DNA of 64,000 nucleotides from Crossiella cryophila (lineage in GTDB: Bacteria; Actinomycetota; Actinomycetes; Mycobacteriales; Pseudonocardiaceae), in the NCBI RefSeq assembly GCF_014204915.1, contig NZ_JACHMH010000001.1, positions 7,713,501-7,777,500 on the forward strand, read 5' to 3'. Of this stretch, positions 18,804 through 64,000 are shown piece by piece. The translations under genes were made by a program, and so were the position numbers. Position 1 is the stretch's first letter, and each line of letters starts with the position of its first letter. Below the pieces are notes generated by a model, which made no database searches, was not told the origin of the DNA, and saw only the letters and a list, made by a program, of their open reading frames with translations.

Positions 18804-21713
<2,910 letters not shown>

Positions 21714-35052: not shown

Positions 35053-35112
35053 GGCCCCTCCGATGGGCCAGGCGTGGGCTCCGCCGCCGAAGCCCACGCC
35101 TGGGGTCCGCTC

Positions 35113-39000: not shown

Positions 39001-42000
39001 AGGTAGGTGAACGCGGTCTCGACCAGGGAGGCACCGCCGCCCCATTCGCGCTGCATCTCCGGCAGCGGGAACCGGCGGTGCGGCCAGACCGCGACCTCCT
39101 CGGCGAAGACCTGGCGCACCAGGTCGAGCCAGGTGGAGCCGGCCAGCTCGACGCCGACCGGGACGGTGTTGAGGTGCATGCCGCGCACGGTCTCGCCGCC
39201 GCTGGTCTCCAGCCGTCCGTTGCACACCAGGCCGGTGTGGAACCGGGTGGAGCCGCTGAGCACGCTGAGTGCCTTGAGATGCGCGGTGAACAGCACGCTC
39301 TTGAGCGAGACGCCCGCGACCACGGCCAAGGCGCGCAGACCGGGTTCGAGGTCGGCGATCGGGACGCCGATCTTGTACGCGGTCTCGTCGCCGCCGGGTT
39401 CGGCCGACCAGCCCTCGGGCAGTTCGACCCGGTCGAACCGGCCGAGGCGGTCCCGCCAGAACTCGCGGTCGTCATTCTCCTTGAGGGAGCGTTGTTCCAG
39501 GGCGATGTAGTCGGCGAACCGGACACTGTGGACGATCGGCACGGCGGGTTCGCGGCCCGCACGCAGGGCGCGGTAGTCGGCCATCAGTTCGGTGATCAGC
39601 GAGTGGTGGCTCCAGCCGTCCAGGATGGCGTGGCACTCGATGAAGGAGAACGTCCAGCGGTCCGTCGCGGTCTGGTGGGCGTGGAAACGCAGCATCGGCG
39701 CGGTGCCGACGTCGAAGGGCGTGGCGCGGGTGTCAGTGATGAAGCGCTGGATCTCGGCGTCCGGATCGGTGCTGTCCCGCAGGTCGTGGTAGCCGACCTC
39801 GATCGCGCCAGCCGGGTGCACGAGCTGGAGTGGTTCGCTGAACCCGTTGAGGTCGAAGGAGGTGCGCAGGATCTCGTGCCGCTGTCCCAGCAGGGCCGCG
39901 GCCTGACGCAGTGCGGTCAGGTCGAGCGGGCCGTCGTCGTTGATCGGCAGCAGGGTGATGTTGTGGTACGGGCTTTCCTCGCTGTCGGCGATCATCTGGT
40001 AGACCATCGCGGCCTGCACCATGGACATCGGGTAGGCGTCCACCAGTCCGGCGGGCAGCGCGGCCCGGTCCGCGGGATCGAGCAGCGCGAAGGCCTCGAC
40101 CCTGCGCTCCTCGGCGTTGTCCACTGTGGACTGGTCGCGGGTCTCGCTGAAGCGGGCGAGTTCCTCGACACTCTGGTGCAGCAGCAGGTTCTGCACGGAC
40201 AGGTCGATGCCGCGCGGGCGCAGTGCGCCGACCACCCGGATGGCGCGGATGGAATCGCCGCCCAGGGTGAAGAAGTTGTCCCGCACGCCGACCGTGGGCA
40301 CCCCCAGCACCTCGGCCCAGGTCTCGGCGATGATCTGTTCGACCGGGTTGCGCGGGGCGAGCTGATCGGCGGTGTGCTGGGCGCGGTGGGCGTCCGGATC
40401 GGGCAGCGCGGCGTGGTCGATCTTGCCGTTCACGGTGAGCGGGAAGGCGTCCACGGGCACGAACAGGGCGGGCACCATGTAGGCGGGCAGGGTCCGGCCG
40501 AGGTGTTCGCGCAGGTCGGCAAGCTCGGCCGGGGCGCCGGTGAAGTAGGCGACCAGGCGGGACTGGTGGGCCAGCACGACGGCCTTGTCCACGGCGGGGT
40601 GGGTGGTGAGGGCGGCTTCGATCTCGCCGGGTTCGATGCGGTGGCCGCGGATCTTGACCTGGTTGTCGGCGCGGCCGAGGAACTCCAGGTCGCCGTCGGC
40701 CCGGTAGCGAGCCAGGTCGCCGGTGCGGTACATGCGGGTGCCGGGGCTGGTGGCGTAGGGGTCGGGGCCGAAGCGGTCGGCGGTGAGAGCGGGTCGGCCG
40801 AGGTAGCCGCGGGCCAGGCCGGGGCCGGAGACATAGACCTGGCCGGGCACGCCGATCGGGACCGGGTTCAGTTCCGGGTCCAGCACGTACAGCCGGAGGT
40901 CGCGCAGGGCGCCGCCGACCGGGCTGCGCTGGTCGCCGTCCAGGTCTTGCCTACTGACCGGACGGTAGGTGACGTGCACGGTGGTCTCGGTGATCCCGTA
41001 CATGTTGACCAGTTCGGGCCGCTGGTCGCCGAAGCGGTCGAACCAGGGCGCGAGTTCGGTGACGTCCAGGGCCTCGCCGCCGAAGACCACGGTGCGCAGG
41101 GACAGCGCGTCGGCGGACAGGTCGGCCTGGGTGACCGCCTCGATCAGGCCGCGGAAGGCCGATGGGGTCTGGTTGAGCACCGTGACCCGCTCGCTGACCA
41201 GCAGGTCGAGGAAGTCCTGCGGGGACCGGGAGATCTCATACGGCACGACCACCGCGGTGCCGCCGTGCAGCAGGGAGCCCCAGAGTTCCCAGACGGAGAA
41301 GTCGAAGGCGTAGGAGTGGAACAGGGTCCAGACGTCGGTGGGGCCGAAGCCGAAGTCGGGTTCGCAGGCGCGCAGCAGGCGCAGCACGTTGGCGTGGGTG
41401 ACCTGGACACCCTTGGGTTTGCCGGTGGAGCCGGAGGTGTAGATGACGTAGGCCAGGTTGTCCGGCGCGACCAGGGGTTCGGGGTCGGTGTCCGGGCGGC
41501 CGGGGTGGTCGACGGGGAGGCTGTCGACGCCGGGCAGCGGGGTGCCGGTGATCGCGAGGGCGACCTCGGCGTCCTCCAGCAGGTAAGCCAACCGATCGGT
41601 AGGGGCGGCCGGGTCCAGGGGCAGGTAGCCGGCACCGGACTTGAGCACGCCGAGCAGGGCAACGACCAGGTCAGGGCCGCGGTCCAGGCAGACGCCGACC
41701 AGGTGGTCGGGACCGGCGCCGCGGGCGCGCAGCTCGTGCGCGAGGCGGTTGGCGCGGGTGTTCAGTTCGGTGTAGGTGAGGCTCTCGCCCTGGTGGCGGA
41801 CCGCGATCGCCTCGGGGGCGCGGCGGACCTGGGCCTGGAACACCTCGGGCAGGGACGCGGTGGCCGGGAAGTGGCGGCCGGAGCCGCTCCACTTGCCGAG
41901 CAGCTGGTCACGTTCGGGCTGGGTGAGCAGTTCCAGCGTTGCCACCCGACCGGTCGGTAGGGCGACGATGCTGGTCAGCAGCCGGGTGAAGTGGCCGATC

Positions 42001-43325
42001 AGGCGCTGGATGGTGGCGGTGTCGAACAGCGCGGTGGCGTATTCGAGCTGGCCGGTCAGGGAGCCGTCGGGGTGGGTGGCCATGGCCAGGCCGAGGTCGA
42101 ACTTGGCCGCGTTCCACTCCACCGGCTCCTGCTCGGCACGCAGGCAGCCCAGCTCGGTGGGCTGCTGGCTGGTGAGCTGGAAGACGACCTGGAACAGCGG
42201 GTTGCGGGACGGATCGCGTTCGGGCGCCAGTTCCTCGACGATGCGCTCGAACGGGGTGTGCTGGTGGGCGTATGCCTCCAGCGCGGTCTCGCGGACCCTG
42301 GCGAGCAGGTCCAGGAAGCTCGGGTCGCCCGCGAGGTCGGTGCGCAGCACGACGGTGTTCACGAACAGGCCGAGCAGGTTCTGCGTCTCCTCGCGGTCGC
42401 GGCCGCCGACCGGGCTGCCCACCACCACGTCGTGCTGACCGGCGTAGCGGCCGAGCAGCAGCTGGAAGGCGGCCAGCAGCACCATGAACGGGGTCGCGCC
42501 CTGCGCTCGGCCGAGGGCGAACAGTGGTTCGGCCAGAGTCGCGGGCAGGGTGAAGGTCTCGCTGGCGCCGCGCGGGTCCCGGATCGGGCCTCTCGACCGG
42601 TCGGTAGGCAGCGCGAGCGGGGTGAGACCGTTCAGGGTCCTGCGCCAGTGCGCGAGCTGTTCGGTGAGCTTCGGGCCGGCGAGCTGCTCGCGCTGCCAGG
42701 CGGCGTAATCGGCGTACTGCACCGGGACCGGCGGCAGCGGCGAGGGCATGGCCGCGGCGAAGGTGGCGTAGAGGCTGTCCAGCTCGGCCAGCAGCACCGA
42801 CTCGGACCAGCCGTCGGCGGCGATGTGGTGGGTGGTGATCAGCAGGATCTGGTCCTCGGCGGTGAGCCGGATGAACAGGGCCCGGATCGGGTGTTCGGTG
42901 GCCAGGTCCAGCGGGCGCTGCCCGTCGGCGTCGATCAGCCTGGCGATCCGGGCGGCCGAGTTGGCGCCGCGCAGGTCGGCCTCGCGCCAGGCGATCGGCG
43001 TGGGTGGGTCGATCAGCTGGACCGGTTCGCCGTCCACTGTGGAGTACCGGGTGCGCAGGATCTCGTGCCTGGCCACGATCTCGTCCAGGGCGGCGCGCAG
43101 CGCGGGCACGTTGAGGTGTCCGCGCAGGCGCAGGCGCAGTGGCATCAGGTACTCGGTGCCGCCGGGCTGGATCTGGTCCAGCACCCACAGCCGCCGCTGG
43201 GCGAACGACAGCGGCAGCGCGCCATCCCTGGCGACCGGGGTGATCCCGGCTTCCGGTGCGGCGGGGCTGAGGCCGCGCAGTCTGCGCTGCAGCAGTTCCG
43301 CGCGGGAGATTGAGCTGGTGCTCAT
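36099..43325 (-). CDS. NRPS, two modules plus cysteine-type thioesterase (C-A-T-C-A-T-TE)
   Basis: A 2408-residue synthetase. C1 (about 35-470, HHIAADG at 166-172); A1 (about 490-985) with specificity residues read as DFWNVGMVHK, one conservative change from the Thr code; carrier Ser 1025 (LGGDS). C2 (about 1095-1530, HAILDG) is of a different lineage from C1; A2 (about 1545-2040) reads DLTKIGEVGK, closest to Asn. A second carrier (LGGHS) precedes the thioesterase (about 2160-2400). Its nucleophile motif is GWCGG: Cys2214 replaces Ser, with D2240 and H2377 completing a triad; the codon is TGC at 36684-36686. AGGAAGG precedes the ATG. As the only TE in the cluster it should release the peptide. 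Confidence 0.95.
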   Translation of the reverse strand: MSTSSISRAELLQRRLRGLSPAAPEAGITPVARDGALPLSFAQRRLWVLDQIQPGGTEYLMPLRLRLRGHLNVPALRAALDEIVARHEILRTRYSTVDGEPVQLIDPPTPIAWREADLRGANSAARIARLIDADGQRPLDLATEHPIRALFIRLTAEDQILLITTHHIAADGWSESVLLAELDSLYATFAAAMPSPLPPVPVQYADYAAWQREQLAGPKLTEQLAHWRRTLNGLTPLALPTDRSRGPIRDPRGASETFTLPATLAEPLFALGRAQGATPFMVLLAAFQLLLGRYAGQHDVVVGSPVGGRDREETQNLLGLFVNTVVLRTDLAGDPSFLDLLARVRETALEAYAHQHTPFERIVEELAPERDPSRNPLFQVVFQLTSQQPTELGCLRAEQEPVEWNAAKFDLGLAMATHPDGSLTGQLEYATALFDTATIQRLIGHFTRLLTSIVALPTGRVATLELLTQPERDQLLGKWSGSGRHFPATASLPEVFQAQVRRAPEAIAVRHQGESLTYTELNTRANRLAHELRARGAGPDHLVGVCLDRGPDLVVALLGVLKSGAGYLPLDPAAPTDRLAYLLEDAEVALAITGTPLPGVDSLPVDHPGRPDTDPEPLVAPDNLAYVIYTSGSTGKPKGVQVTHANVLRLLRACEPDFGFGPTDVWTLFHSYAFDFSVWELWGSLLHGGTAVVVPYEISRSPQDFLDLLVSERVTVLNQTPSAFRGLIEAVTQADLSADALSLRTVVFGGEALDVTELAPWFDRFGDQRPELVNMYGITETTVHVTYRPVSRQDLDGDQRSPVGGALRDLRLYVLDPELNPVPIGVPGQVYVSGPGLARGYLGRPALTADRFGPDPYATSPGTRMYRTGDLARYRADGDLEFLGRADNQVKIRGHRIEPGEIEAALTTHPAVDKAVVLAHQSRLVAYFTGAPAELADLREHLGRTLPAYMVPALFVPVDAFPLTVNGKIDHAALPDPDAHRAQHTADQLAPRNPVEQIIAETWAEVLGVPTVGVRDNFFTLGGDSIRAIRVVGALRPRGIDLSVQNLLLHQSVEELARFSETRDQSTVDNAEERRVEAFALLDPADRAALPAGLVDAYPMSMVQAAMVYQMIADSEESPYHNITLLPINDDGPLDLTALRQAAALLGQRHEILRTSFDLNGFSEPLQLVHPAGAIEVGYHDLRDSTDPDAEIQRFITDTRATPFDVGTAPMLRFHAHQTATDRWTFSFIECHAILDGWSHHSLITELMADYRALRAGREPAVPIVHSVRFADYIALEQRSLKENDDREFWRDRLGRFDRVELPEGWSAEPGGDETAYKIGVPIADLEPGLRALAVVAGVSLKSVLFTAHLKALSVLSGSTRFHTGLVCNGRLETSGGETVRGMHLNTVPVGVELAGSTWLDLVRQVFAEEVAVWPHRRFPLPEMQREWGGGASLVETAFTYLDFHVLDARRIESAGVVDVSPNEFALDVWTFPGALFLAARPERISRANGERLARLYRRILELMAADPGGNARDNGLDEVETARLLSFAHGEEAEYPELCLHELFEQQVGRTPDATALRCADGSTVDYSALNARANRIAHHLRSLGVGQESRVGILLRRGPDLVAALLGVLKAGAAYLPLDPTHPAQRLTDLLAETHAEVVLAETATAHLLPGRRLVLLDETDLDHVSTVDLGRTSTPDSLAYIIYTSGSTGTPKGVMIEHRNLVNYVLWCLGAYTPLRGKGSPLYSSVAFDLPVTSIFPALLTGQPVTITADDGTPGIDALVAALEAGEFGLLKLTPSHLAVLNQSLTPEAARRATGRIIAGGEELVRDMVSSWARHAPDTVVDNEYGPTETTVGCSWLEAPANGLEPGVLPIGKPIANTVMRVLDANLELVPVGVAGELYIGGAQLARGYVERPELTAARFIPDPFAAQPGARLYRTGDLARYRADGVLEFAGRVDHQVKIRGYRIELGEIEAALHRQVPLQDVIVRVHTAPSGDKELIAYLVPAEDSTLDIAALPAKLAEILPDYLVPQAFLELDELPLTSNGKVDTARLPKPELAKVSARFQAPRTAVENILARAWAEALKRGRVGVHDSFTELGGHSLSVMRIIVKLREEHGIRLSFRDFYEHRTIAELARVLGDNSAEQSEVDSLDAVVWLRRGGSRAPLFCVHPGSAHWFAQLAEHLDPDQPVAAFEWPGLSRRCPAPESVHHIAELNLAQLRRLQPSGPYRLLGWCGGSQITTEMARRLRAEGEQVTFMLLDPALDSYERANMHEFMARFRRAEHLLAELATASAEQVPALQEQAVAVLELIVDDGRIDPPVPGDEFWPSRVRVWRELLQTRLDYRHEPYPGPLHLIAGDELAAGEHEVAVGVNFVDYTQRWAELATGGLDVHRVGGNHLGVLRAPQVGEVARVLTRLMATPEDAQKDVN
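40951..40968. repeat. 18-bp palindrome, site in NRPS
   Basis: CTACTGACCGGACGGTAG within the two-module NRPS gene; related sites at 41943-41960 and 42590-42607. Confidence 0.55.
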
Positions 43326-43490: not shown

Positions 43491-44729
43491 ATGAGCGAAG
43501 AGGTGCCGCCGCTGCGGCGTAACCGGGACTTCCTGCTGTTGTGGTCGGGTTCGGCGGTGTCCAGCCTCGGCGCGAACGCCTCCAGCGTGGCCTATCCGCT
43601 GCTGGTGCTGGCGCTGACCGGTTCGCCGGTGGACGCCGGGGTGAGCGGGTTCATCGCGCTGCTGCCGCAACTGGTGTTCCAGGTGCCTGCCGGGGCGCTG
43701 GTCGATCGGTGGAACCGCAAGCGGGTGATGATCTGGTGCGACATCCTGCGCGCACTGGCCATCGGCACCCTGGCGGTGGCGCTGGTGAGTGATTCGCTGA
43801 CGTTGCCGCACATCCTGGCGGTCGGGTTCACCGAGGGGGTGCTGACCGTGACGTTCAAGATCGCGGCGGCGGCCGCGGTGCCGAATGTGGTGCATCCGAG
43901 TCATCTGACCTTCGCGTTGTCCCGCAACGAGGCCAGGGAGCGGGGCGCGGCGATGCTGGGTCAGCCGCTGGGCGGGGCGTTGTTCGGGCTGGGCCGGGCG
44001 GTGCCGTTCCTGTTCGACGCGGTGACCTACCTGGTGTCGCTGGCCTCGTTGTTGTTGATCCGCACCGATTTCCAGGCCGAGCGCAAGCCGCGCAAGCTGG
44101 AGCTGGGCGCCGGGATCGCCTGGTTGTGGCGGCAGCCGTTCCTGCGGATGACCACGTTCCTGGTGGCAGGCAGCAACTTCCTGTTCCGCGCGCTGTTCCT
44201 GGTGGTGATCGTGATCGCCGCGGACTACGGCGCCTCGCCGACGCTGGTGGGCGTGATGTTCGGACTGGCCGCGGTTGGCGGGGTGCTGGGTTCGCTGGCC
44301 GCGCCCGCGCTGGAGCGCAGGCTGTCGATGAAGGTGGTGGTGGTCGCGGCGAACTGGGCCTGGGGCCTGCTGGTGCCGATGGTGTTGCTGGTGCCCAATC
44401 CCTATGTGCTGGGCGCGGTGTACGCGTTGATGTGCTTTGTCGGTCCGGTGTGGAATGTGGCGATCTCGGCCTATCAGATCGCGGTGACGCCGGATCACAT
44501 CCAGGGCCGGGTGCTGGGGGCGGCGGGGATGATCGCGTTCGGCGCGGTGCCGTTGGGGTCGTTGCTGGGTGGGTTCGCGCTGGAGTGGATCGGGGCGCGG
44601 GCGACGGTGTGGGCGTTGGCGGTGTGGATGATCGGGCTGGCGATCGTGGCCACGGTGAGTCCGGCGGTGCGTAACGCGCCGAGTCTGGATTCGGCACGGC
44701 CGGCGCGGGAGTCGGTCGCGGTCCGCTGA
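43491..44729 (+). CDS. MFS transporter (EntS-like exporter)
   Basis: A 412-residue major facilitator of the MFS_3/EntS branch with twelve predicted membrane segments. FLLLWSGSAVSSLGANASSVAYPLLVLALTG is segment 1, and DRWNRKRVM is the conserved loop between segments 2 and 3. It is the only rightward gene inside the leftward NRPS array, so it interrupts the operon. Export of the peptide, hence self-protection, is the likely role. No clear Shine-Dalgarno site. Confidence 0.9.
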   Translation: MSEEVPPLRRNRDFLLLWSGSAVSSLGANASSVAYPLLVLALTGSPVDAGVSGFIALLPQLVFQVPAGALVDRWNRKRVMIWCDILRALAIGTLAVALVSDSLTLPHILAVGFTEGVLTVTFKIAAAAAVPNVVHPSHLTFALSRNEARERGAAMLGQPLGGALFGLGRAVPFLFDAVTYLVSLASLLLIRTDFQAERKPRKLELGAGIAWLWRQPFLRMTTFLVAGSNFLFRALFLVVIVIAADYGASPTLVGVMFGLAAVGGVLGSLAAPALERRLSMKVVVVAANWAWGLLVPMVLLVPNPYVLGAVYALMCFVGPVWNVAISAYQIAVTPDHIQGRVLGAAGMIAFGAVPLGSLLGGFALEWIGARATVWALAVWMIGLAIVATVSPAVRNAPSLDSARPARESVAVR

Positions 44730-44784: not shown

Positions 44785-47025
44785 TCAGCGAGGATCGGCC
44801 ACCGCGACGAAGCGGAGTTCGGCGGTGTGCGGTTCGCGGTTGTGGTCGGGCAGCCAGGCCTGGTCCGGGGTGGGCAGCATCTCGGTGATGGTGAGCTGCC
44901 CGGCCGGGTCCTTGCGGGCCAGCCGGCGGACGGCCTTGGCCAGGATGTTGAGGTAGACGGGGCTGTCGAAGTCGACGTAGAACGGGCGGGGTTCGGCCGG
45001 GGAGGTGACGAAGACGAAGCGGGGCAGGGTGTTCGCCTCGCGCCATTGGCGGAGGCGGACGAAGCGGCGGGGTTCGGACCTCTCCTCGGCCGCGGTGACC
45101 TCGGCGGCGGGGAAGCGCCAGGTCTCGCGGGTGACGACCAGGGTGTCGACGGTGATCCGCGGGGTGTGCGGGGCTTCCGGGACCAGGCGGAACAGGTCCA
45201 TGGCCAGGGTGGTCAGGACGTGGCCGAAGACGTCGATCACCGGGAACCGGGTGCCGTCGGGCAGCACGGCCCGCAGGGTGTCGTGCCGTTCGACCTGGAT
45301 GTCGGCGCTGGCGTGGGTGTGTGGGCGGGATGGGTCGGCGGTGTGGTCGACCAGGGCGACGTAGTGGTCCTCGGGGCGGATCAGGGTGTGCCGGATCCTG
45401 GCGGAGAGTCGGGAGCGGTGTTCCTTGGGCAGCAAGGGAAGCAGGCGGGGCCCGGGGTGGTCGCGAGTGGTGCCGGCGAGCAGTTCGGACTGGTCCGGGT
45501 GCTGGTTGACGAACAGGGAGGCGCCCAGGGTGTTGGTGGCGATGTGCAGTTCGCCGAGCACCAGGTGGTCCTCGGTGAGCAGGATGTCGGGGCTGAGGTA
45601 GCGGGCCGCGGTCCAGCCGGGGGCGCGGTTGCCGAAGGCCACCGACACCCGGTGTTCGATGTCCTTTGTGGACCGTGCGACCCGGTTGCCGCTGCCCGGG
45701 TTGAGGATGATGGCCCAGCGGCGCTGGAACTCCTTCTGCAACTCGGTCGCGTCCTCGGCCGCCGCGCCGTGCAGGATGGGCATGCAGGCGAACCAGAACT
45801 CGGCCAGGTTGACCGGGCCGTCGGCGGCCAGGCGGTCGAAGACCTCCTCGGCGCGTTGCAGGACCCGGTCGGCGAGGTTGGCGGTGAGCCAGGTGGCGCT
45901 GGTCAGGAACAGGGACAGCGGGGCCAGTGCGTCCAGGACCCGGTGTCCCGCGGTGGCGGTGGCGCTGCGCCGGCAGTCGGAGTAGACCAGTGCCCGGCAG
46001 GGCGCGGTGCTCGCGGACTTCTCGCGGACCGCGGCGGTGTCGGTGAGGGCGACGAAGTCCTGTTCCAGTTTGGTGAACGCGGCGGCCAGGGTGTCCGCGT
46101 CGGTGGCGGCGGCGACCTCGGCTCGGCCACGTTCCAGGGTGTCCAGGGCGACGATCGCCTGGGCCCGTTGGGGTTCGTCCTCCACTGTGGACAGCCAGGT
46201 GCGCAGCCAGCGTTCCGGGTGGGCGTCGGCGGGGATCTCCAGGCGCCACACCAGCCAGCGGCGGCCGACCAGGTCCGCGAGCAGCGCGGGCACGTCCAGG
46301 TCGGGGTTGGCCTGTGCCAGGTGGTGGGCGGAGCGGGTGCCGTCGCACTGGGTCAGCAGGCGATGCTGGTCCGGGGTGATCGGCTGCGGTGGGCGGCTGG
46401 GGATGGTGACCGCGTCCGGTCCGATGTGGACGAACGGGACGCGGCGGGGCGCGATCCACTGGCGCAGGCCGGGTTCCAGGGTGCGGGCGAGGGTGTCGAT
46501 GGCCCAGCTGGCGAAGTAGACGTTGGTCTCCGCGATCAGCGATTCGCCGGGCTCGACGGTGACGCCGGTCTGGGTGAGGTCCCAGCGGCCCCAGCCGACC
46601 GGGCCGAAGAAGCCGATGGTGTCGTTCTTGACGCAGAACCGTTGCCAGTAGTGGGCGATGAGTTCCTCGCGCTGGCGGGGCATGCTGGTGCGGCCGGCCG
46701 CGGTGGGGGTCCAGTCCAGGAAGGGTTTGATGCCGGTGGTGAGCACCGGGCGGTTCTGCCAGGCGACCGCGGCCCGGAAGTCGGGCCGGGCCGCGATGTC
46801 CTGGAGGTCCAGCGCGGTCTGCACCGCGGCTTCCTGGTAGGTCTCCTCGAATCCGGTCCAGTCCACTCCGGTGAGCCGGTCGTCCCGGTCGAACTTGTCC
46901 GCGGCCTGGGCCAGGCCGGCGGGTGCGAGCCGGAGCACCCCGTTGGCGGGGAAACCGGGGCCGCGCAACGCGAACTGGTCCCACAGTCGCCAGGTCTGGT
47001 CCAGGCGCACCTCGTCCGCACCCAT
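44785..47025 (-). CDS. LanB-like protein (lantibiotic dehydratase N-domain), copy 2
   Basis: A 746-residue protein of the Lant_dehydr_N family, the part of class I lanthipeptide dehydratases that uses aminoacyl-tRNA. Family landmarks are WRLWDQFALRGPGFP at the N-terminus, a mid-protein LVYSDCRRSATAT and near the end PRFVFVTSPAEPRPFYVDFDSP. The region that normally reads R-x-T-P-F-G is KNDTIGFFGPVGWGRW. There is no SpaB_C elimination domain, so it is the size of glutamylation-only LanB or PEARL proteins. ATG is 5 nt after the carrier-protein stop. It is a close paralogue of the gene at 49635; nucleotide identity is high around 46600-46750. Confidence 0.85.
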   Translation of the reverse strand: MGADEVRLDQTWRLWDQFALRGPGFPANGVLRLAPAGLAQAADKFDRDDRLTGVDWTGFEETYQEAAVQTALDLQDIAARPDFRAAVAWQNRPVLTTGIKPFLDWTPTAAGRTSMPRQREELIAHYWQRFCVKNDTIGFFGPVGWGRWDLTQTGVTVEPGESLIAETNVYFASWAIDTLARTLEPGLRQWIAPRRVPFVHIGPDAVTIPSRPPQPITPDQHRLLTQCDGTRSAHHLAQANPDLDVPALLADLVGRRWLVWRLEIPADAHPERWLRTWLSTVEDEPQRAQAIVALDTLERGRAEVAAATDADTLAAAFTKLEQDFVALTDTAAVREKSASTAPCRALVYSDCRRSATATAGHRVLDALAPLSLFLTSATWLTANLADRVLQRAEEVFDRLAADGPVNLAEFWFACMPILHGAAAEDATELQKEFQRRWAIILNPGSGNRVARSTKDIEHRVSVAFGNRAPGWTAARYLSPDILLTEDHLVLGELHIATNTLGASLFVNQHPDQSELLAGTTRDHPGPRLLPLLPKEHRSRLSARIRHTLIRPEDHYVALVDHTADPSRPHTHASADIQVERHDTLRAVLPDGTRFPVIDVFGHVLTTLAMDLFRLVPEAPHTPRITVDTLVVTRETWRFPAAEVTAAEERSEPRRFVRLRQWREANTLPRFVFVTSPAEPRPFYVDFDSPVYLNILAKAVRRLARKDPAGQLTITEMLPTPDQAWLPDHNREPHTAELRFVAVADPR

Positions 47026-47030
47026 CGGTC

Positions 47031-47279
47031 TCACCCCTGTGCCGGTTCGAGGTCCAGCACGCCGGCCAGGTCGATCGGCGAGGGGTAGGCGAAGACCAGC
47101 GCCACCGGCACCTCGGCGCCGAGGGCGTCGCGCAGGCGGGCGGTGATCTGGAAGGCGGCCAGGGAGTCGCCGCCCGCCTCGAAGAAGTCGCTGGCGGTGT
47201 CCAGGTGATCGTCGCCGAGCGTCTCGCGGTAGATCGCGGCGATCAGTTCGGGCACGTCCACCTTGAGGTCGTTGGTCAT
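47031..47279 (-). CDS. Free-standing peptidyl/acyl carrier protein
   Basis: An 82-residue PCP-type carrier. The phosphopantetheine Ser is in FFEAGGDSLAAF (about residue 39), followed by VALVFAYPSPIDLAGVL, the usual helix III region. ATGA overlap with the PLP enzyme upstream and a 5-nt gap to the LanB-like gene downstream place it in a coupled unit with a free adenylation domain. It should carry an amino acid activated in trans. Confidence 0.93.
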   Translation of the reverse strand: MTNDLKVDVPELIAAIYRETLGDDHLDTASDFFEAGGDSLAAFQITARLRDALGAEVPVALVFAYPSPIDLAGVLDLEPAQG

Positions 47280-48181
47280 GGCTGTCCTTTCGCTGTGGTG
47301 TTTCCGCCGGAGACGATCGCGACGGCGGTGCCGGTCCACCCGGCGCGCAGTGCGCCCGCGAGGGCCACCGCGCCGCTGGGTTCGGCGTTGACCCCGTTGC
47401 GCCGCAACAGGTCGAGTGCGTGGCGGACGGCCTCGTCGGACACGCCGATGAGGTCGTCCACCCGGTGCTGGATGATCGGGAACGGCACCTCGCCGGGACG
47501 TTGGCCACGCAGGCCGTCGGCGATGGTGTCCGGTGGCGGCAGTTCGACCGGGCCGCCCGCGGCGAGTGAGCGCGCGTACCGGCGGCAGGCCGTGGGTTCC
47601 ACGCCGATCACCCGGATGTCCTTGCCCAGTGCGGCCAGGCAGGTGCCTGCCAGGAGGCCGCCACCGCCGGTGGGGACGAAGATCGTGTCGGTGTCGGGTG
47701 CGTCGGCGAGGACTTCCAGGGCGACCGTGCCCGCGCCCGCGACCACCAGGTCGTGGTCGGAGGAGGGCAGCAGGAACGCGCCGATGTTGGCGGCCAGTTC
47801 GCGGGCGTGTCGTTCGCGGTCGGCCACTCCCCCTGGCACGGCGACGATGTCGGCGCCGAGTTCCCGGATCCGGGCGGCCTTGACCGGGCTGGCTCCGGCG
47901 GCCATCACGACGGTGACGGCGACGCCGAGCCGGGCGCCCAGGGTGGCCACCGCGATGCCGTGGTTGCCGGAGGATCCGGCGACGACCGCGCTGACCCCGT
48001 TGCCCAGCAAGGCGTTGGCCGCGCCGCGGAGTTTGAAGGAGCCGCTGCGCTGGCGGTGTTCGGCCTTGAGCCGCAGGCCGGGCAGGCAGGGCAGCAGTGG
48101 GGTGTGCCGGATCTGGGTGGCGATCCGGTCCGCGGCGGCGGCGACGTCGGCGTGGCCGAGTTGCAGGGCGGGGGTGGTCAT
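47276..48181 (-). CDS. PLP enzyme, serine/threonine dehydratase-like (fold type II)
   Basis: A 301-residue fold-type II PLP protein. The Schiff-base Lys is K50 in SGSFKLRGAAN; AGSSGNHGIAVA binds the substrate carboxylate, and PTGGGGLLAG binds the cofactor phosphate. Family members deaminate Ser or Thr to keto acids; some relatives racemise Ser or do beta-replacement. Its coupling by ATGA to the adenylation domain and the carrier protein suggests it makes or removes an unusual precursor. A housekeeping ilvA role is unlikely in this setting. Confidence 0.88.
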   Translation of the reverse strand: MTTPALQLGHADVAAAADRIATQIRHTPLLPCLPGLRLKAEHRQRSGSFKLRGAANALLGNGVSAVVAGSSGNHGIAVATLGARLGVAVTVVMAAGASPVKAARIRELGADIVAVPGGVADRERHARELAANIGAFLLPSSDHDLVVAGAGTVALEVLADAPDTDTIFVPTGGGGLLAGTCLAALGKDIRVIGVEPTACRRYARSLAAGGPVELPPPDTIADGLRGQRPGEVPFPIIQHRVDDLIGVSDEAVRHALDLLRRNGVNAEPSGAVALAGALRAGWTGTAVAIVSGGNTTAKGQP

Positions 48182-49638
48182 CGGGCCAGTGCCTTGCGGT
48201 CGGTCTTTCCGGTGCTGGTGGTGGGCAGGCGGTCGATGCGGGCGAACCGGCGCGGCATCAGGTGCGGCGGCAGGGTTTTCCCGAGGTGGGCGCGCAGGTC
48301 GGCGTCGGTGATGTCGGCGAGGTCGCCGGTGAGGTGGGCGATCAGGTGCACGCGGCCGCGGTCGTCGGTGGCGGCGGTGATCACCGCGCCGGTGACCGCG
48401 GCATGGGTCAGCAGGGCGGACTCGACCTCGGCCGGGTCGACCCGGTAGCCGCGGATCTTGATCTGCCGGTCCACCCGGCCCAGGTATTCCAGGATGCCGC
48501 CCTCGGTGCGGCGGGCCAGATCGCCGGTGCGGTACATGCGGGAGCCGGGTTCGCCGAACGGGTCCGGGCGGAAGCGGTCCGCGGTGAGCCCTGGGCGATC
48601 CGCGTAACCCCTTGCCACGCCAAGGCCGCCGAGGTGGATCTCGCCGATGGTGTTGGGCGGCACCGGGTTGCCTTGATCATCGAGGAGGTGGGCGGTGACG
48701 CCGTCGACCGGGACGCCGATGTGGTCGGCGCTGAGGTCCGGGACGACGGGGACGCGGTGGCGGGTGGAGGTCATGGTGCACTCGGTCGGGCCGTACTGGT
48801 TGACCAGGCTGCCCGCGATCAGGTCCCGGCCGCCCGCGGCGAGGAACGGGCGCAGGGATTCCCCGCTGGCCACCACCAGGCGCAACCGGCGCAGGTCGGC
48901 GGCGATCTCCCGGTGCTGAGCCAGGAAGGTCAGGAAGGACGGGGTCACGCTGAGCACGGTGTCGACCTCGTAGCGCCGGATCACCTCGGCGAACTCGTTG
49001 GCGCGCAACAGGGACTCCCGCGGTGCGAGGACCAGTCGGCCGCCGGCGAGCAGTGGCGCGAAGATGTCCCGGATGGAGGCGTCGTAACCCAGCGGGGCCA
49101 GTTGCACGGCGGTGGTGTGCGGGCCGAGGTCGTAGTCCTTGGCCAGGAATCGCAGGTAGGAGTCCAGGCCACGGCGTTCGATGAGCACCGCGTTGGGGGT
49201 GCCGGTGGAGCCGGAGGTGTGGCTGACGTAGGCCAGCGACCGGGGTGACACGGCGGGCAGCGGTGCGATGGCCGGGGTGAGCCGGTCCAGCAGGGTGGTG
49301 CGGCCGGGGAAGGGCAGCTCGACCTGACTGGTGGTCAGCAGATGCCTGGTGTGTCCACTGTGGAGCATGGCGGCCAGGCGCTGGGGTGGCTGGTCGATGT
49401 CCAGGGTGAGGAACGCGCCGCCGGCGTGCAGCACGGCGGCCATCGCGACCACCGCGTCCACTCCCCTGGGCACGGCGATGGCGCAGACCTGTTCCGGGCG
49501 CAGCCCTTCGACCACCAGGCATTGGGCCAGTCGGAGGATCCGGTTGCGCAGTTCGCCATAGGACACGGTGCGGTCCGGGGTGATGATCGCGGGGGTGTGC
49601 GGTGGGTTGGCCAGCAGCTCGTCCACGAAACCGGTCAT
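48178..49638 (-). CDS. Free-standing adenylation domain
   Basis: A 486-residue A domain with all core motifs: YVSHTSGSTGTPNAV (A3), NQYGPTE (A5), YRTGDLARR (A7), GRVDRQIKIRGYRVDP (A8) and STGKTDRKAL with the catalytic Lys (A10). The A3 loop ends PNAV rather than PKGV. Specificity residues read approximately DARSVSQMT; Asp235 indicates an alpha-amino acid, but I match no known code. It overlaps the LanB-like stop and the PLP-enzyme start (ATGA at both). Probably loads the free carrier at 47031-47279. Confidence 0.92.
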   Translation of the reverse strand: MTGFVDELLANPPHTPAIITPDRTVSYGELRNRILRLAQCLVVEGLRPEQVCAIAVPRGVDAVVAMAAVLHAGGAFLTLDIDQPPQRLAAMLHSGHTRHLLTTSQVELPFPGRTTLLDRLTPAIAPLPAVSPRSLAYVSHTSGSTGTPNAVLIERRGLDSYLRFLAKDYDLGPHTTAVQLAPLGYDASIRDIFAPLLAGGRLVLAPRESLLRANEFAEVIRRYEVDTVLSVTPSFLTFLAQHREIAADLRRLRLVVASGESLRPFLAAGGRDLIAGSLVNQYGPTECTMTSTRHRVPVVPDLSADHIGVPVDGVTAHLLDDQGNPVPPNTIGEIHLGGLGVARGYADRPGLTADRFRPDPFGEPGSRMYRTGDLARRTEGGILEYLGRVDRQIKIRGYRVDPAEVESALLTHAAVTGAVITAATDDRGRVHLIAHLTGDLADITDADLRAHLGKTLPPHLMPRRFARIDRLPTTSTGKTDRKALAR

Positions 49639-51938
49639 GAGGCACCGCCGGTCTGGTCGACCGCGACGAAGCGGAGTTCGGAGGTGTAGCGCTGACCCTG
49701 GTCGTCGGTGAGCCAGGCCTGTTCCGGGTTGGGCAGCATCTCGCTGACCGTGATCCGGCCGTCCGGGTCGGTGCGGGCGAGGCGGCGGGCGGCCTTGGCC
49801 AGGATGTTGACGTAGACCGGGCTGTCGAAGTCGACGTAGAACGGCCGGGGTTCGGTGGGCGAGGTGACGAAGACGTACCGGGGCAGGTCCAGTTCCTCCC
49901 GCCACTGCCGGGCCTTGACGAACCGGCGGGCCTCGCTCTTCTCCGCGGTGAACTCCAGCTTCGCGGCGACGAACCGCCAGGTCTCGCGGGCGATGATCAT
50001 CCGGTCGACGGTGATCCGCGGCGAGTGCTCGGCGTTGGTGCGCAGGGAGAAGCGGTCCATGACCCGGTTGGTGAGCGCGTTGCCGAAGACGTCCAGGAGC
50101 GGGAACTCGGCGCCGTCGGGCAGGATGGCGAGCAGGCGGCCGTCCCGGTCGAGGACCTCGATGTCGGCGCTGTTGAGGGCGCGCGGGTTGTGCGGGTCGG
50201 CGGTGTAGTCGACCATGCCGGCGAAGTAGTCCTCGGGACGCACCAGGGCCGGGCGGCTGCGGGTGGACCAGCGTGGCGGCTGTTCCTTGGGCAGCATGGG
50301 CATCAGCCGCGGGCCGGGGAAGTCCATTGTGGTCTCGGCGAGCAGCTCGGCCATGTCCGGGTGCTGCATGGCGAACAGGGAGGCGCCGACGGTGTTCATG
50401 GCCACGTGCAGTTCGCCGAGCACCAGCTCGAACTCGCCGCGGGCCACCGCGTCGGCGTCCTCGGCCAGGATCAGCACGTCCGGACTCACGTATCGGGCAA
50501 TATTCCAGGCATCGCCTGGTTCGCCGAAGGCCGCCTCCACCTGGTCTTTCAGGTCCACTGAGGACAGTCGGATCCGGCGGGCGCCGTCGGGGGCGTTGAT
50601 GATCCGGGTCCAGCGCTCGCGCAGTTCGGCCTGGATGCGGTCGATCTCGGCGGTGGAGTCGGGGTGTGGCACGGGCAGGCATTCGAACCAGAGCGCGCCC
50701 AGGTCGACCCGGCCGTGCTTGGCGAGCAGCTTCTCGTAGGCGGTGCGGATGCGGGCGGTCATCGACTCGGCGAACCGGTTGGTCAGCCAGCGGGCCGCGG
50801 TCAGGCACAGGGCCAGTGGGGTGAGTTCGGCCAGCACGGCCGAGCCCAGGGTGGCGGTGGCCGAGCGGCGGCAGTCGGAGTAGACCAGTGAGCGGCAGGG
50901 CGCGGTGCGGCTGTTCTTGGCCCGGACCGCGGCGGACTCGGTGAGCGCGGCGAAGTCCTGTTCCAGCGCGGCCATCGCCGCGGACAGCGCGTCCGCGTCA
51001 CCATAGGCGTGGTGGATGCGTTGTTTGGCCTGTTCCAGCACGGCGAGCTTGGCCAGGGCGCGGTCGCGGACCGCCGGGTCGCCGACTCGCTCCATTGTGG
51101 ACCGCAGATGCTGCTCGGGGTGTGCGGTGGTGGGGACCTCCAGGCGCCACACCGCCCAGCGCCGCTTGGTCAGGTCCTCGATCCCGGCCAGCACCTCGTC
51201 CTCGGTGCGGCCGAGCTGGGCGGCCAGGTCGACCGGGGAGCGGGTGCCGTCGCAGCGGGACAGGAGTTCGCGCTGGTCCGGGGTGATCGGCTGGGGCGGG
51301 CGGCCGGGCAGGTGCACGGTGTCGGCGGTGATCCGGACGAAGGACACCCGGCGCGGCGGGGTCCAGCGGCGCAGGGCGGGGTCCTCGCCGAGCACGCGGG
51401 CGAGGGTGTCGATGGCCCAGCTGGAGAAGTACACGGTGGACTCGGCGATCAGGCCCTCGCCCGGGTCGACCGTCACGCCTTCCCGCGCCAGGTCCCAGCG
51501 GCCCCAGCCGACCGGGCCGAAGAAGCCGATGGTGTCGTTCTTGACGCAGAACCGCTGCCAGTAGTGCGCCACCAGTTCCTCCCGCTGGCGGGGCATGCTG
51601 CTGCGCCCGGCCGCGGTGGGGGTCCAGTCCAGGAAGGGCTTGATGCCGGTGCCCAGTACGGTGCGGTTCTGCCAGGCCACCGCGGCACGGAAGTCGGGCC
51701 GGGCCGCGATGTCCTGGAGTTCCAGGGCGGTCGCTACCGCGGCCGTGCCGAACTCCTCCTCGAACGCGGTCCAGTCCACACCGGACAGTGGGGTGCCGCG
51801 GTCGAACTTGTCCGCGGCCGCGGCCAGGCCGTCCGGGGCCAGCCGGAGCACCCCGGCGGCGGGGAAGCCGGGGCCGCGCAGGGAGAACTGGGACCACAGC
51901 CGCCAGCCGCCAGTGGGGAGGAAGACGTTGTCGGACAT
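49635..51938 (-). CDS. LanB-like protein (lantibiotic dehydratase N-domain), copy 1
   Basis: A 767-residue paralogue of the gene at 44785, with the same landmarks: WRLWSQFSLRGPGFP, KNDTIGFFGPVGWGRW, QPITPDQRELLSRCDGTRS, LVYSDCRRSATAT and PRYVFVTSPTEPRPFYVDF. It likewise lacks an elimination domain. In lanthipeptide systems the domain transfers Glu from tRNA-Glu to Ser/Thr; in PEARLs it adds an amino acid from tRNA to a peptide C-terminus. ATG at 51938 is chosen over an earlier in-frame start at 51974 that would overlap the carbamoyltransferase. No lanthipeptide precursor or LanC cyclase is nearby. Confidence 0.85.
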   Translation of the reverse strand: MSDNVFLPTGGWRLWSQFSLRGPGFPAAGVLRLAPDGLAAAADKFDRGTPLSGVDWTAFEEEFGTAAVATALELQDIAARPDFRAAVAWQNRTVLGTGIKPFLDWTPTAAGRSSMPRQREELVAHYWQRFCVKNDTIGFFGPVGWGRWDLAREGVTVDPGEGLIAESTVYFSSWAIDTLARVLGEDPALRRWTPPRRVSFVRITADTVHLPGRPPQPITPDQRELLSRCDGTRSPVDLAAQLGRTEDEVLAGIEDLTKRRWAVWRLEVPTTAHPEQHLRSTMERVGDPAVRDRALAKLAVLEQAKQRIHHAYGDADALSAAMAALEQDFAALTESAAVRAKNSRTAPCRSLVYSDCRRSATATLGSAVLAELTPLALCLTAARWLTNRFAESMTARIRTAYEKLLAKHGRVDLGALWFECLPVPHPDSTAEIDRIQAELRERWTRIINAPDGARRIRLSSVDLKDQVEAAFGEPGDAWNIARYVSPDVLILAEDADAVARGEFELVLGELHVAMNTVGASLFAMQHPDMAELLAETTMDFPGPRLMPMLPKEQPPRWSTRSRPALVRPEDYFAGMVDYTADPHNPRALNSADIEVLDRDGRLLAILPDGAEFPLLDVFGNALTNRVMDRFSLRTNAEHSPRITVDRMIIARETWRFVAAKLEFTAEKSEARRFVKARQWREELDLPRYVFVTSPTEPRPFYVDFDSPVYVNILAKAARRLARTDPDGRITVSEMLPNPEQAWLTDDQGQRYTSELRFVAVDQTGGAS

Positions 51939-52889: not shown

Positions 52890-54185
52890 TCACCGGTTCC
52901 GGGTGCTGTGCAGGGCGTCGCGGAGCACGTCGAGGCCGCGGTCGAGCCGGGCGATGTCGATGGTCAGCGGCGGCAGCACCTTGATCACCTCGTCGTGGCG
53001 GCCGCACAGCTCCACGATCAGGCCGTGCTCGAAGGCGTGCCGCTGCACCAGGTCCGCGCGCTCGGGCCCACCGGCGCCGGCGAGGTCGATGCCCAGGGCC
53101 ATGCCGCGGCCGCGGGTGACGATGGCCGGGTCGAGGAGTTCGGTGCGGAAGCGGTCCAGGCGGCGGGATGCCACGGCCAGGTCGGTGTGGAACTTGGTCT
53201 GCCGCCACAGGTCCAGCGCGGCGGTGGCGGCGACGAAGGCGAGCTGGTTGCCACGGAAGGTGCCGGTGTGCTCGCCCGGTTCCCACACGTCCAGGTCGCG
53301 GCGGAACAGGGTCAGCGAGAGCGGGAGGCCGTAGCCGCCGATGGACTTGGACACGGTGACCATGTCCGGCACCACGCCCGCGTGCTCGAAGCAGAAGAAG
53401 GTGCCGGTGCGGCCGCAACCGGCCTGGATCTCGTCGAAGATCAGCAGGATGCCGTGCCGTTCGGTGAGCGCGCGCAGTGAGCGCAGCCAGTCCGGGGAGG
53501 CCGGGTAGATGCCGCCCTCCATCTGCATGGGTTCCACGATCACCGCGGCCGGGATCTCGAAGCCGGAGGACGGGTCGGCGAGCAGGCGTTCCAGGTAGCC
53601 GACCGAGTCGAATGTCCCCTGTGGACTGTCCTCATAGGGCACGAAGGTGACGTCGGAGGGCCCGATCCCGCCCGCCCGGCGGGCCCGGCGGCTGCCGGTG
53701 ACGGCCAGGGAGCCGCGGGACATGCCGTGGTAGGCGCCGGTGAAGGCGACCACGCCGGTGCGGCCGGTGGCCTTGCGGGCCAGTTTGAGCGCGGCCTCGA
53801 CCGCGTCGGTGCCGGTGGGCCCGCAGAACTGGATCTTGTAGTCCAGGTCGCGTGGTCGCAGCACGACCTCGGCGAAGGTGTTGAGGAACTCGCGCTTGGC
53901 CACGGTGTGCATGTCCAGGCCGTGCACGATGCCGTCGGCTGCCAGGTACTCGGTGAGGCGGCGCTTGATGAAGTCGTTGTTGTGCCCGTAGTTCAGGGTG
54001 CCCGCGCCACAGAAGAAGTCGATGAAGACCCGGCCGTCCTCGCCGTGCAGTTCGGCGCCCTTGGCGCGGTGGAAGACGATCGGGAACTTCCGGCAGTAGC
54101 TGCGCACCTCGGATTCGAGGTCCTGGAACACCGAGAAGTCGGTGGCCGCGGTGTGCGTGCCGGGGTGATGCGCGGTGACGGTCAT
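52890..54185 (-). CDS. Diaminobutyrate--2-oxoglutarate aminotransferase (EctB-like)
   Basis: A 431-residue class III PLP aminotransferase. FFCGAGTLNYGHN, CGPTGTDAVEAALKLARKATGR, FDEIQAGCGRTGTFF and the Lys in TVSKSIGGYGLPL match EctB/DABA aminotransferases that convert aspartate semialdehyde to L-2,4-diaminobutyrate. No ectA or ectC is present, so ectoine is not the goal. The gene follows the large NRPS by 26 nt with AGAGGA before the ATG, indicating supply of diaminobutyrate to the peptide. Confidence 0.92.
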   Translation of the reverse strand: MTVTAHHPGTHTAATDFSVFQDLESEVRSYCRKFPIVFHRAKGAELHGEDGRVFIDFFCGAGTLNYGHNNDFIKRRLTEYLAADGIVHGLDMHTVAKREFLNTFAEVVLRPRDLDYKIQFCGPTGTDAVEAALKLARKATGRTGVVAFTGAYHGMSRGSLAVTGSRRARRAGGIGPSDVTFVPYEDSPQGTFDSVGYLERLLADPSSGFEIPAAVIVEPMQMEGGIYPASPDWLRSLRALTERHGILLIFDEIQAGCGRTGTFFCFEHAGVVPDMVTVSKSIGGYGLPLSLTLFRRDLDVWEPGEHTGTFRGNQLAFVAATAALDLWRQTKFHTDLAVASRRLDRFRTELLDPAIVTRGRGMALGIDLAGAGGPERADLVQRHAFEHGLIVELCGRHDEVIKVLPPLTIDIARLDRGLDVLRDALHSTRNR

Positions 54186-54211: not shown

Positions 54212-57200
54212 TCAGCGCTCGCCGGGTTCGGCCAGCAGAGCGGCGACTTCTTCGTCGGAGAGCTGGTCGATCTCCGCCTCGATGGCCTGCAGCACCGCCT
54301 CGGCCAGGGTGGCGACGGTGGTGGCCTCGAACAGGCGGCGCAGCGGCAGATCGATGCCGAAGACCACGTTCAGCCGGGCCAGCACGCGGGTGGCGAGCAG
54401 GGAGTGCGCGCCGAGGGCGAACACGTCGTCCTCGACCCCGATCCGGCTCAGTCCCAGCACCTCGCCCCAGATCCCGGACACGATGTGCTCGGTCGGGGTT
54501 CTGGGCGCCAGGTAGGGGCTTTCGAGGTCGGGGCGGTCGATCTCGGGCTGCGGCAACGCCTTGCGGTCGACCTTCTTGCTCGGGGTGAGCGGCAGTTCGG
54601 GCAGGAACGTCCACAGGCCGGGCATCATGTACTCGGGCAGTCGTTCCGCGGCGAACGTACGCAGGTCGGTGATCTCCGGGGTCCGGTCCTGCGGGACCAG
54701 GTAGGCGACCAGTCGCCGGTCGCCGGGTTGCACGTCCCTGGCCACCACGACCGCGGCGCGGACCGCCGGGTGCTGGGCGAGCACGGCTTCGATCTCGCCG
54801 AGTTCGATCCGGAAGCCGCGGAGTTTGACCTGCTGGTCGATCCGGCCGAGGAACTCGATGGTGCCGTCGGGCAGGTAGCGCACCAGGTCGCCGGTGCGGT
54901 ACAGGCGGGCGCCGGGTTCCGCGCCGAACGGGTCGGGGACGAACTTCTCCGCGGTCAGCTCGGGTCGCCGGTGGTAGCCGCGGGCCAGCCGGATACCGCC
55001 GAGCAGCAGTTCTCCTGGGACGCCAACGGGTACCGGGTCGCCGTGTCTGTCCACAATGTACGCTCGGGTGCCGGGCACCGGGCGGCCGATGGGCAGGGCG
55101 GCTTCGGCGCGGGCCTCGTCCGGCACGGTGGCGATGGGGTGCAGCAGGCAGGTGACGGTGGCCTCGGTGGGGCCGTAGTTGCACAGGAACCGGCCGGGCA
55201 GACCGGTCGCGGCCCACTGGCGGGCGTCCTCGACGGTGACCACGTCGCTGCCCACGTTCATCAGCCGCAGACCGTGCAGGCGTGGGTCACCGGGCTGGAG
55301 GGTGCGGAGGACCTCGCGGTAGTAGGCGGGGGTGATCTCCATGATGGTGATGCCGTGTTCGTGGATCCGGTCGGGCAGTTCGGCCGGGCTCCAGAACAGC
55401 GGGTCGGCCACCACGATGCTCGCGCCGACCAGCAGGGTGGCCGCGATCTGGTCCATGGCCACGTCGAAGGTGAGCGCGGACAGCAGTACCACCCGATCGG
55501 TCGGTCGGATGTCGTACTGCTGGGCGATGATCCGGCAGTGGTGGGCGTAGGAGCCGTGTTCGATCAGCACGCCCTTGGGCCGGCCGGTGGAACCCGAGGT
55601 GAAGATCATGTAGGCCAGGTGCGCCGGGGTGGCCAGGGGTTCGGGGTTGTCCGCCGGACGCTGGGTGATGGCTTGGGCTTCGCGGTCGAGCCGAACGACC
55701 GGTCGGTCGGTGGTGAAGTGCCGGTCGCCGGTGGTGATCACCAGGTGTGCGGTGGCGTCGGCGAGCATGAAGGTGAGCCGGTCGGCCGGGTGGTCGGGGT
55801 CGATCGGGACGTAGGCACCGCCGACCTTGAGCACGGCGAGCAGGGAGATCACCGCGTCCAGGCCGCGGTCCAGGCAGACCGCGACGATGGTCTCCGGGCC
55901 GACGCCGTGCGCACACAGGTGGTGGGCGAGTTGGTTGGCGCGGGCGTTGAGTTGGGCGTAGCTGAGTCGTTCGGGGCCGAAGGACACCGCTTCGGCCTCG
56001 GGGTGCTGGGCCACGCGCTGCTCGAACAGGGCGGGCACGCAGGCCGGGACTTCCTCGGGGCCGGGCGGGTTCCACTCGTGCCGGAGCTGGTGCTGCTCGG
56101 ATTCGGTGAGCATGACCAGGGAGTCCAGGGGCAGGGCCGGGTTGGTGACGGCGTGGTGGAGCAGTCCCAGGTAGTGCCCGGCCATCCGCTGGATGGTGGA
56201 CTCGTCGAACAGCGCGGTGGCGTACTCGAACAGTCCGGTGAGGCTGCCGTCGGCCCGCCGACCGAGGGACAGGGTGAGGTCGAACTTGGCGGTGTGCCAG
56301 GGGGCGCGCACGCGTTCGACGGTCAGGCCGGACAGGCGGAGCGGGGTGCGCTGGGCCTGTTGCAGCTCGAACATGACCTGGAACAGCGGGTTGCGGGAGA
56401 GGTCGCGTTCGGGCTGGAGTTCGTCCACCAGGCGCTCGAACGGGAGGTCCTGGTGAGCGAACGCACCGATCACGTGCTCGCGGACCTGGTCGATCAGCGC
56501 GCCGAAGCTGGGCACACGGGTGAGGGATTCGCGCAGCACCACGGTGTTGAGGAAGGCGCCGAGCATGTCCTCGACCTCGGCCCTGGTGCGCCCGGCGACC
56601 GGGGTGCCGACCGCGACGTCGGACTGGCCGGTGTGCCGGGCCAGCAGCACGTGGAAGGCGGCCAGCAGCACCATGAACGGGGTGGCGCCGTGTGTGCGGG
56701 CCAGGGTGTCGACCTCGGTGGTGGTGTCCGCGGGGATCTCGATGGCCAGCAGGTCGCCGCGACTGTCCCTTGTAGATGGACGCGGGCGGTCGCCGGGGAG
56801 TTCGAGCTGGGGCAGGTGGGCGAGGCGGTCGCGCCAGTAGGTCAGGTGGCGTTCGGGTTCGGGTCCGGTGGACCAGTTGTGTTGCCAGGCGGCGAAGTCC
56901 GCGTACTGGACCGCGGGTGCGGCTGGCGGGTTGCCGCCGGTGGTGCGGGATTCGTAGTAGTGGCCGAGGTCGCGGGTGAGCACGTCGATGGACCAGGCGT
57001 CGACCGCGATGTGGTGGGCGGTGAGCGCGATCAGGTGCTCGTCCGGGCGGATGCGGATCAGCAGGGCCCGGAACGGGATCTCCTGGTCCAGGGCGAACGG
57101 CCGGGCGGTGTCGGCGTGCACCAGGGTTTCGGCCTGGGTGACGGCTTCCTGGTAGGGCAGCGTGGTCAGGTCGATCGGGTGCAGGTCGAGGCTGGTGGCC

Positions 57201-63790: not shown

Positions 63791-64000
63791 ATGACCGAGG
63801 AGAACGACGAGGCCGTGTACCGCGTCGTGCGCAACGACGAGGAGCAGTACTCGATCTGGCGGGCCGACCGGGAACTGCCGCTCGGCTGGCACGCCGAGGG
63901 CACCGAGGGTTCCCGGCAGGACTGCCTGGACCACATCGGCCGGGTGTGGACCGACATGCGCCCGCTGAGCCTGCGCCGCCGCATGGAACAGGTGAGCTGA
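63791..64000 (+). CDS. MbtH-like NRPS accessory protein
   Basis: A 69-residue MbtH family protein with the signature NDEEQYSIWRADRELPLGWH, then the CLDHIGRVWTDMRPLSLR end. These small proteins bind and stabilise adenylation domains. GGAGG precedes the ATG. It ends exactly at the window edge (TGA at 63998-64000) and diverges from the large NRPS it probably serves. The cluster may continue to the right. Confidence 0.96.
   Translation: MTEENDEAVYRVVRNDEEQYSIWRADRELPLGWHAEGTEGSRQDCLDHIGRVWTDMRPLSLRRRMEQVS

Follow-up and report, generated by a model that had tools for sequence, protein, structure and literature searches.

The 64,000-nucleotide stretch of DNA analysed here (the window) comes from a high-GC actinobacterial genome and encodes two NRPS proteins together with two LanB-like proteins. 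On the minus strand, a single operon runs in the order NRPS1, diaminobutyrate aminotransferase, OTC-like carbamoyltransferase, LanB2, stand-alone adenylation (A) domain, PLP enzyme, stand-alone carrier protein and LanB1. Downstream of LanB1 lies a convergent MFS gene, followed by NRPS2 and a VioC/GntD-like hydroxylase. The features are as follows:

35113..36099, minus strand: Fe(II)/2OG beta-hydroxylase of the VioC/GntD/clavaminate synthase group (NCBIfam GntD, 5e-66, below cut-off)
36099..43325, minus strand: NRPS2, C-A-T-C-A-T-TE, second C domain with the odd motif ECHAILDG (Pfam; motifs)
43491..44729, plus strand: MFS exporter (MFS_1, 7.6e-30)
44785..47025, minus strand: LanB1, PEARL-like Lant_dehydr_N protein, 746 aa (Pfam PF04738, 6.6e-33; PEARL residues kept in its clade)
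47031..47279, minus strand: stand-alone peptidyl carrier protein, 82 aa (Pfam PP-binding, 4.4e-14; GGDSL; conserved in 55 aligned cassette matches)
47276..48181, minus strand: PLP enzyme of the Ser/Thr dehydratase - Ser/Asp racemase group, 301 aa (PALP, 4.7e-67)
48178..49638, minus strand: stand-alone NRPS adenylation domain, 486 aa, code DARSVSQMT (TIGR01733, 2e-105, above cut-off; code mapping)
49635..51938, minus strand: LanB2, PEARL-like Lant_dehydr_N protein, 767 aa
51959..52879, minus strand: OTC-like carbamoyltransferase, accessory (OTCace_N/OTCace)
52890..54185, minus strand: diaminobutyrate aminotransferase (EctB-like), accessory (TIGR02407, 572 bits, above the cut-off of 552.2)
54212..63613, minus strand: NRPS1, C-A-T three times, initial C domain of a cassette-associated clade (Pfam; C-domain tree; codes)
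63791..64000, plus strand: A-domain partner that we take to be of the MbtH-like family (read from the DNA; similar proteins occur near the cassette in other loci)

The original prediction, made from the sequence of this locus, described two stand-alone LanB-like paralogues within an NRPS operon, and profile searches agreed. The two proteins, 60% identical sisters of 746 (LanB1) and 767 residues (LanB2), give scores of 114.2 and 186.1 bits against PF04738 (Lant_dehydr_N), for which the Pfam gathering cut-off is 28 bits. The predicted lack of an elimination domain also held: PF14028 was absent from both LanBs and from the cluster, matches in the genome lying ~0.3 and 1.3 Mb away, and none was found near the cassette in those of seven genomes where coordinates permit a check. 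Similarly, no lanthipeptide precursor or LanC was found among the annotated genes and gaps from NRPS1 to LanB1. All intergenic gaps over this interval are at most 26 bp, leaving no room in the operon for a RiPP-type scaffold peptide gene, which could be encoded at a distance. Tight coupling to NRPS parts was evident both from synteny with the stand-alone A domain and carrier and from 4-bp overlaps at LanB2/A, A/PLP and PLP/carrier. Both LanBs thus carry the glutamylation-like domain without the elimination domain, the composition by which PEARLs are recognised. Their fold is common to TbtB and NisB, and no PDB sequence matched them. TbtB, MadB and GodF glutamylate Ser/Thr residues of ribosomal peptides. 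The nearest named relative, Crossiella S99.2, encodes LanB2 and LanB1 with 96% and 95% identity, and Crossiella CA-258035 with 87% and 84%.

We then compared the LanBs with BhaB7, whose ATP site comprises D558, E575, E813 and R815 and whose contacts to the tRNA 3'-CCA end include Y205 and R208, as well as R197, Q201 and R429; PEARLs use the E-x-R pair for carboxylate phosphorylation (PMC12945691, PMC11962472). By motif and spacing only, D487, E509, E754 and R756 are the counterparts of the four ATP-site residues. The original prediction had named loss of all tRNA- and adenylate-binding residues as a ground for rejecting it. Among 117 sequences, PEARL-type residues were kept in both LanB clades: Y126, R129, D487, E509, H511 and R651 are invariant, and R21, E754 and R756 are kept wherever the alignment reaches. 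Seven distant relatives, with ~32-43% identity, retain the same residues. Position 756 is V in the genome's two canonical LanBs (L001 and L002) and in MadB, MibB and NisB where these align to L002, so that, unlike in the cassette LanBs, the R of the E-x-R pair is missing from all five canonical LanBs examined. Because D487 is common to canonical LanBs and E509 is shared by one of the two canonical LanBs, it is R756 (and H511) that carries the assignment to PEARLs. The Y126-x2-R129 pair is invariant in the LanB clades, yet is also found in L002. The same comparison by motif and spacing gave no clear match for Arg197, Gln201 or Lys763 of BhaB7 and no assigned counterpart for its Arg429, and K715 is replaced by S, A or N in five of the seven distant relatives. 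The LanBs probably obtain amino acids from transfer RNA.

TglB, AmmB2 and BhaB7 resemble the LanBs in consisting of the glutamylation-like domain alone and, by motif, in the E-x-R pair, the acidic positions and the CCA-reading Tyr/Arg. These three enzymes extend a ribosomal scaffold peptide (PMC12945691, PMC11962472), whereas here none fits in the operon and the sole small carrier is the PCP.

Among the 117 sequences, LanB1 and LanB2 formed two clades (support 0.946), the exceptions being L060 and L069, whose LanBs both fall on the LanB1 side. The split points to a duplication that predates these species, and each copy has stayed intact. Association with carriers is broad in this LanB branch: six of the seven distant relatives (L106, L107, L108, L109, L110 and L112) have a carrier protein or NRPS domains directly beside the LanB, and the seventh (L111) has a C-domain protein there. 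PKS, Hpg-type or SbnA/OCD genes lie near the LanB in several of these loci. The neighbours of the LanB and carrier in L106 are genes for an HPPD-like protein, an FMN dehydrogenase and an aminotransferase, a set that we take to resemble the one for 4-hydroxyphenylglycine supply.

The survey for the same gene set elsewhere, proposed with the original prediction, revealed a conserved unit that the prediction had missed. Scanning one genome per species yielded 245 confirmed relatives, and the best 80 of these gave 66 actinobacterial loci (codon-bias gene calls in the loci contain antisense errors, and such calls were left out). The full order LanB2-A-PLP-carrier-LanB1 was present in 46 of the 66. 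Three loci, all from Amycolatopsis, have LanB2-PLP-LanB1 with neither A domain nor carrier between the LanBs, and the remaining 17 are cut by contig ends or otherwise arranged, including that of Actinomadura (L060) with A-carrier-LanB only. The Amycolatopsis genomes do not lack the cassette A domain, as we had considered: an ortholog, 62-64% identical, is encoded beside an NRPS gene, and the maps of L088 and L092 place it directly downstream of that gene, ~20 kb from the LanBs if on the same contig. The OTC-like gene and the aminotransferase (>50% identity) were found in few of the 66 loci (12 and 8, respectively) and are therefore considered accessory. A LanB1-like match at E <= 1e-60 occurred in 10 of 394 genomes drawn from the class, the genome studied here included.

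The stand-alone A domain has a nearly constant specificity pocket. When codes were mapped by core motifs, 54 of 56 cassette A domains showed DARS[V/A/C]SQMT, the other two being DARSLSHMT and DGRSLSHIT. The same mapping returned standard codes for the window's NRPS modules, presumably of the Asn and Thr types, which supports its use; two mappings disagree on the last letter of the first A domain of NRPS1 (C or G) and on the third (DVDEVTNVT or DVDENGNVT), making both of these codes less certain. We know of no characterised match to the cassette code, but arginine at position 239 suggests a substrate with an acidic side chain, for which aminoadipate codes are the one precedent known to us. In the L060 cluster, where the A code has G at position 236, there are genes for subunits resembling methylaspartate mutase (scores below curated cut-offs) and for an asparagine synthetase A that scores above cut-off. 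These genes fit a methyl-Asp version and could equally serve that cluster's Asn-type NRPS modules. We also considered whether the cassette A domain stands in for one missing from an NRPS module. This was rejected, as all five modules of NRPS1 and NRPS2 are complete C-A-T units with their own A and T, and the extra A domain and carrier are not needed for gap-filling. The PLP enzyme has threonine deaminase, serine racemase and aspartate racemase as relatives in the PDB. Its PLP lysine and SSGNH motif are invariant in 56 aligned matches, and all 55 matches aligned at the position of serine racemase D216, a metal ligand, have arginine there.

NRPS1 opens with a C domain, and we asked how such domains are related across clusters. 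In a tree of 73 C domains recovered by script (some loci were missed), a single clade with support 1.0 comprised one first C domain from each of 19 clusters, that of the window included; of these clusters, L056 shows part of the cassette only, and the C domain of L051 is first by order and not labelled as such. Their module-1 codes differ: 12 are DADN-type, five DPLQ-type, one (the window) DLTK-type and one DAEE-type. Another 17 gene-initial C domains fall outside the clade, from second NRPS genes, Amycolatopsis, L071 and the L060/L089 cluster; those of Amycolatopsis that come first lie in a sister clade (support 0.939) and further out. Given one clade of first C domains despite the differing module-1 codes, the simplest reading is a constant donor, which would be what the cassette makes on its carrier. 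The pattern would equally fit a block that was inherited as a whole.

From the conserved cassette and its residues, the fold, the near-constant A code and the common first-C clade, we infer a loading step, the use of tRNA, a site of attack, the added amino acids, an order of events and a role for the PLP enzyme. The A domain would charge the stand-alone carrier with a single, fixed amino acid whose side chain is probably acidic, and the PLP enzyme would supply or racemise an amino acid. Using ATP, LanB1 and LanB2 would each activate a free carboxylate of the carrier-held unit by phosphorylation, couple it to the amine of an aminoacyl-tRNA and then hydrolyse off the tRNA. Since the alpha-carboxyl is tied up in the thioester, attack would most simply occur at the side-chain carboxylate, and the first C domain of NRPS1 would take the finished unit as its donor. 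That the LanBs are tRNA-dependent ligases acting at the loading stage seems to us fairly probable. The full model, in which the five genes form a loading unit with two PEARL-type ligases, is put forward more tentatively, and its most specific form, in which the two ligases build a branch stepwise on the side chain of the held amino acid and the branched unit primes the assembly line, is possible but doubtful. In that form, the carrier protein would replace the ribosomal scaffold peptide of PEARL pathways. Against the model, the acidic-substrate reading draws on the single residue R239, the first C domains of Amycolatopsis lie outside the clade of 19, and a LanM-like gene found near the cassette in 21 loci falls outside its account.

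Several other functions could be envisioned for the LanBs. They might add amino acids from tRNA to the NRPS peptide, at a free carboxylate such as the C terminus after release by the TE, with the A domain, carrier and PLP enzyme serving a separate starter. The closest characterised LanB-like case, SnaE, acts late, its authors leave undecided whether its intermediates are T-domain-bound or free (PMC11212132), and the cluster around the 36% identical relative in L110 contains EHHMIHDG, the motif of ureido formation. However, L110 was the only fetched locus examined in which the EHHxxHDG (Curea) motif occurred, the window lacks it, the LanB genes interleave with those for the A domain, PLP enzyme and carrier in 46 of the 66 loci, and genes overlap in the window; we regard late extension as unlikely. 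Chemistry at the N terminus or the thioester, by which the LanBs would replace NRPS modules, appears somewhat less likely still. Here, the carrier-bound amine would attack the tRNA ester, giving N-terminal growth with the same polarity as LanB glutamylation, or the tRNA-borne amine would attack the thioester. Precedents exist in PacB, described as adding alanine in an NRPS pathway, and in the L/F-transferase-like enzyme of livipeptin biosynthesis, for which a transfer of Leu/Phe from tRNA onto the Arg of an A-PCP-R NRPS has been proposed (PMC10548850). Neither reaction needs ATP, yet the E-x-R pair and acidic residues are kept throughout.

Classic LanB chemistry, as carried out by NisB and MibB when they glutamylate Ser/Thr of ribosomal peptides (PMC12945691), would here act on carrier- or NRPS-bound Ser/Thr and, with elimination, give a dehydro amino acid. 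The shared fold, a PLP enzyme from a dehydratase group and the Thr-type code in NRPS2 are in its favour, but with no elimination domain in the cluster or near the cassette where this could be checked, and with R756 missing from every canonical LanB seen, we consider it improbable. Finally, the LanBs might have lost tRNA chemistry and serve as a scaffold or for carrier docking, in line with the lack of a PDB sequence match; the retention of active-site residues in both clades makes this highly improbable. We therefore favour tRNA-dependent ligation at the loading stage. Of the two substrates originally proposed, a carrier-bound amino acid or an NRPS peptide, the former is the best reading, because the PEARL-type ATP- and tRNA-site residues are kept and the synteny with the A domain and carrier is conserved. 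The likely role in NRPS loading and the distinction between PEARL chemistry and glutamylation had been overlooked.

The proposal that the enzyme class constitutes an undescribed system did not stand. Yu and van der Donk (2024) described SnaE, a PEARL-like ligase of the threopeptin pathway, and showed its role in an NRPS cluster by heterologous expression and deletion; they counted about 2,000 NRPS/PKS clusters with LanB-like genes (PMC11212132). Encoded in the sna NRPS-PKS cluster of Stackebrandtia nassauensis, SnaE is likewise described as a stand-alone Lant_dehydr_N protein, with no precursor peptide or elimination domain and an expected PEARL mechanism; it is a single LanB that acts once a Curea C domain has reversed the chain (PMC11212132). 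By that description, the cassette differs in having two LanBs interleaved with an A domain, a PLP enzyme and a carrier, and in lacking the Curea motif. Coupling of tRNA to NRPS is not new either, with precedents in other enzyme families (PacB and livipeptin). Livipeptin formation in Streptomyces involves an L/F-transferase-like, tRNA-utilizing enzyme and an A-PCP-R (C-minus) NRPS and is RNase-sensitive; here too, an amide would be made on an A-PCP unit with an amino acid drawn from tRNA (PMC10548850). As described, that system differs in using one A-PCP-R protein and no LanB. Its L/F-transferase-like enzyme is of a family not known to be related to the LanBs.

The arrangement of the cassette itself looks new, as we did not find it described in the literature searched, which consisted mostly of papers outside subscription. 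Among LanB-like enzymes of NRPS/PKS clusters, SnaE is the only one with a worked-out role in the literature we found. The near-constant A code, constant gene order and related first C domains define a substrate that could be reconstituted, namely one amino acid on one 82-aa carrier. Reconstitution would show whether PEARL-type ligases act directly on NRPS carriers, and would enable prediction, and perhaps editing, of starter residues in a widespread family of uncharacterised peptides.

Further features of the locus fall outside this argument. The second C domain of NRPS2 (39638, minus strand), which precedes the last module, has ECH-A-[IV]-LDG instead of HHxxxDG, as do C domains of the related clusters L091 and L092. 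Directly beyond the right end of the window lie SbnA- and SbnB-type genes for 2,3-diaminopropionate (locus L090; TIGR03945 and TIGR03944, both above cut-off), so that diaminopropionate may be used by the cluster in addition to diaminobutyrate. A free-standing aspartate-kinase-like ACT regulatory domain encoded next to the hydroxylase gene (34537-35097, minus strand), with similar genes in L008 and L012, is possibly tied to diaminobutyrate supply.

The window also encodes a fused alpha-beta type glycyl-tRNA synthetase (18804-21713, minus strand), and the genome has a dimeric GlyRS at ~2.75 Mb. The fused enzyme as a dedicated supplier of Gly-tRNA found no support: its type occurs in three of nine checked cassette genomes, and those relatives that allowed a judgement showed no link between GlyRS and cassette. 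G401, a close relative within Crossiella, has the alpha-beta enzyme on a different contig (C41) from the locus, and in G402 it lies ~90 kb from the locus if contig C14 is the locus contig (we infer the correspondence in both genomes).

The LanM-like genes found, by similarity, near the cassette in 21 loci include those of L040, where Pfam (run on this locus alone) identified DUF4135 and LANC_like, and of L086 from S. griseofuscus, where it lies between the NRPS and the cassette. In 15 Streptomyces loci, a small conserved peptide is encoded near this gene. The five sequences inspected have a GG site and one Cys, and the peptide may be a lanthipeptide precursor.
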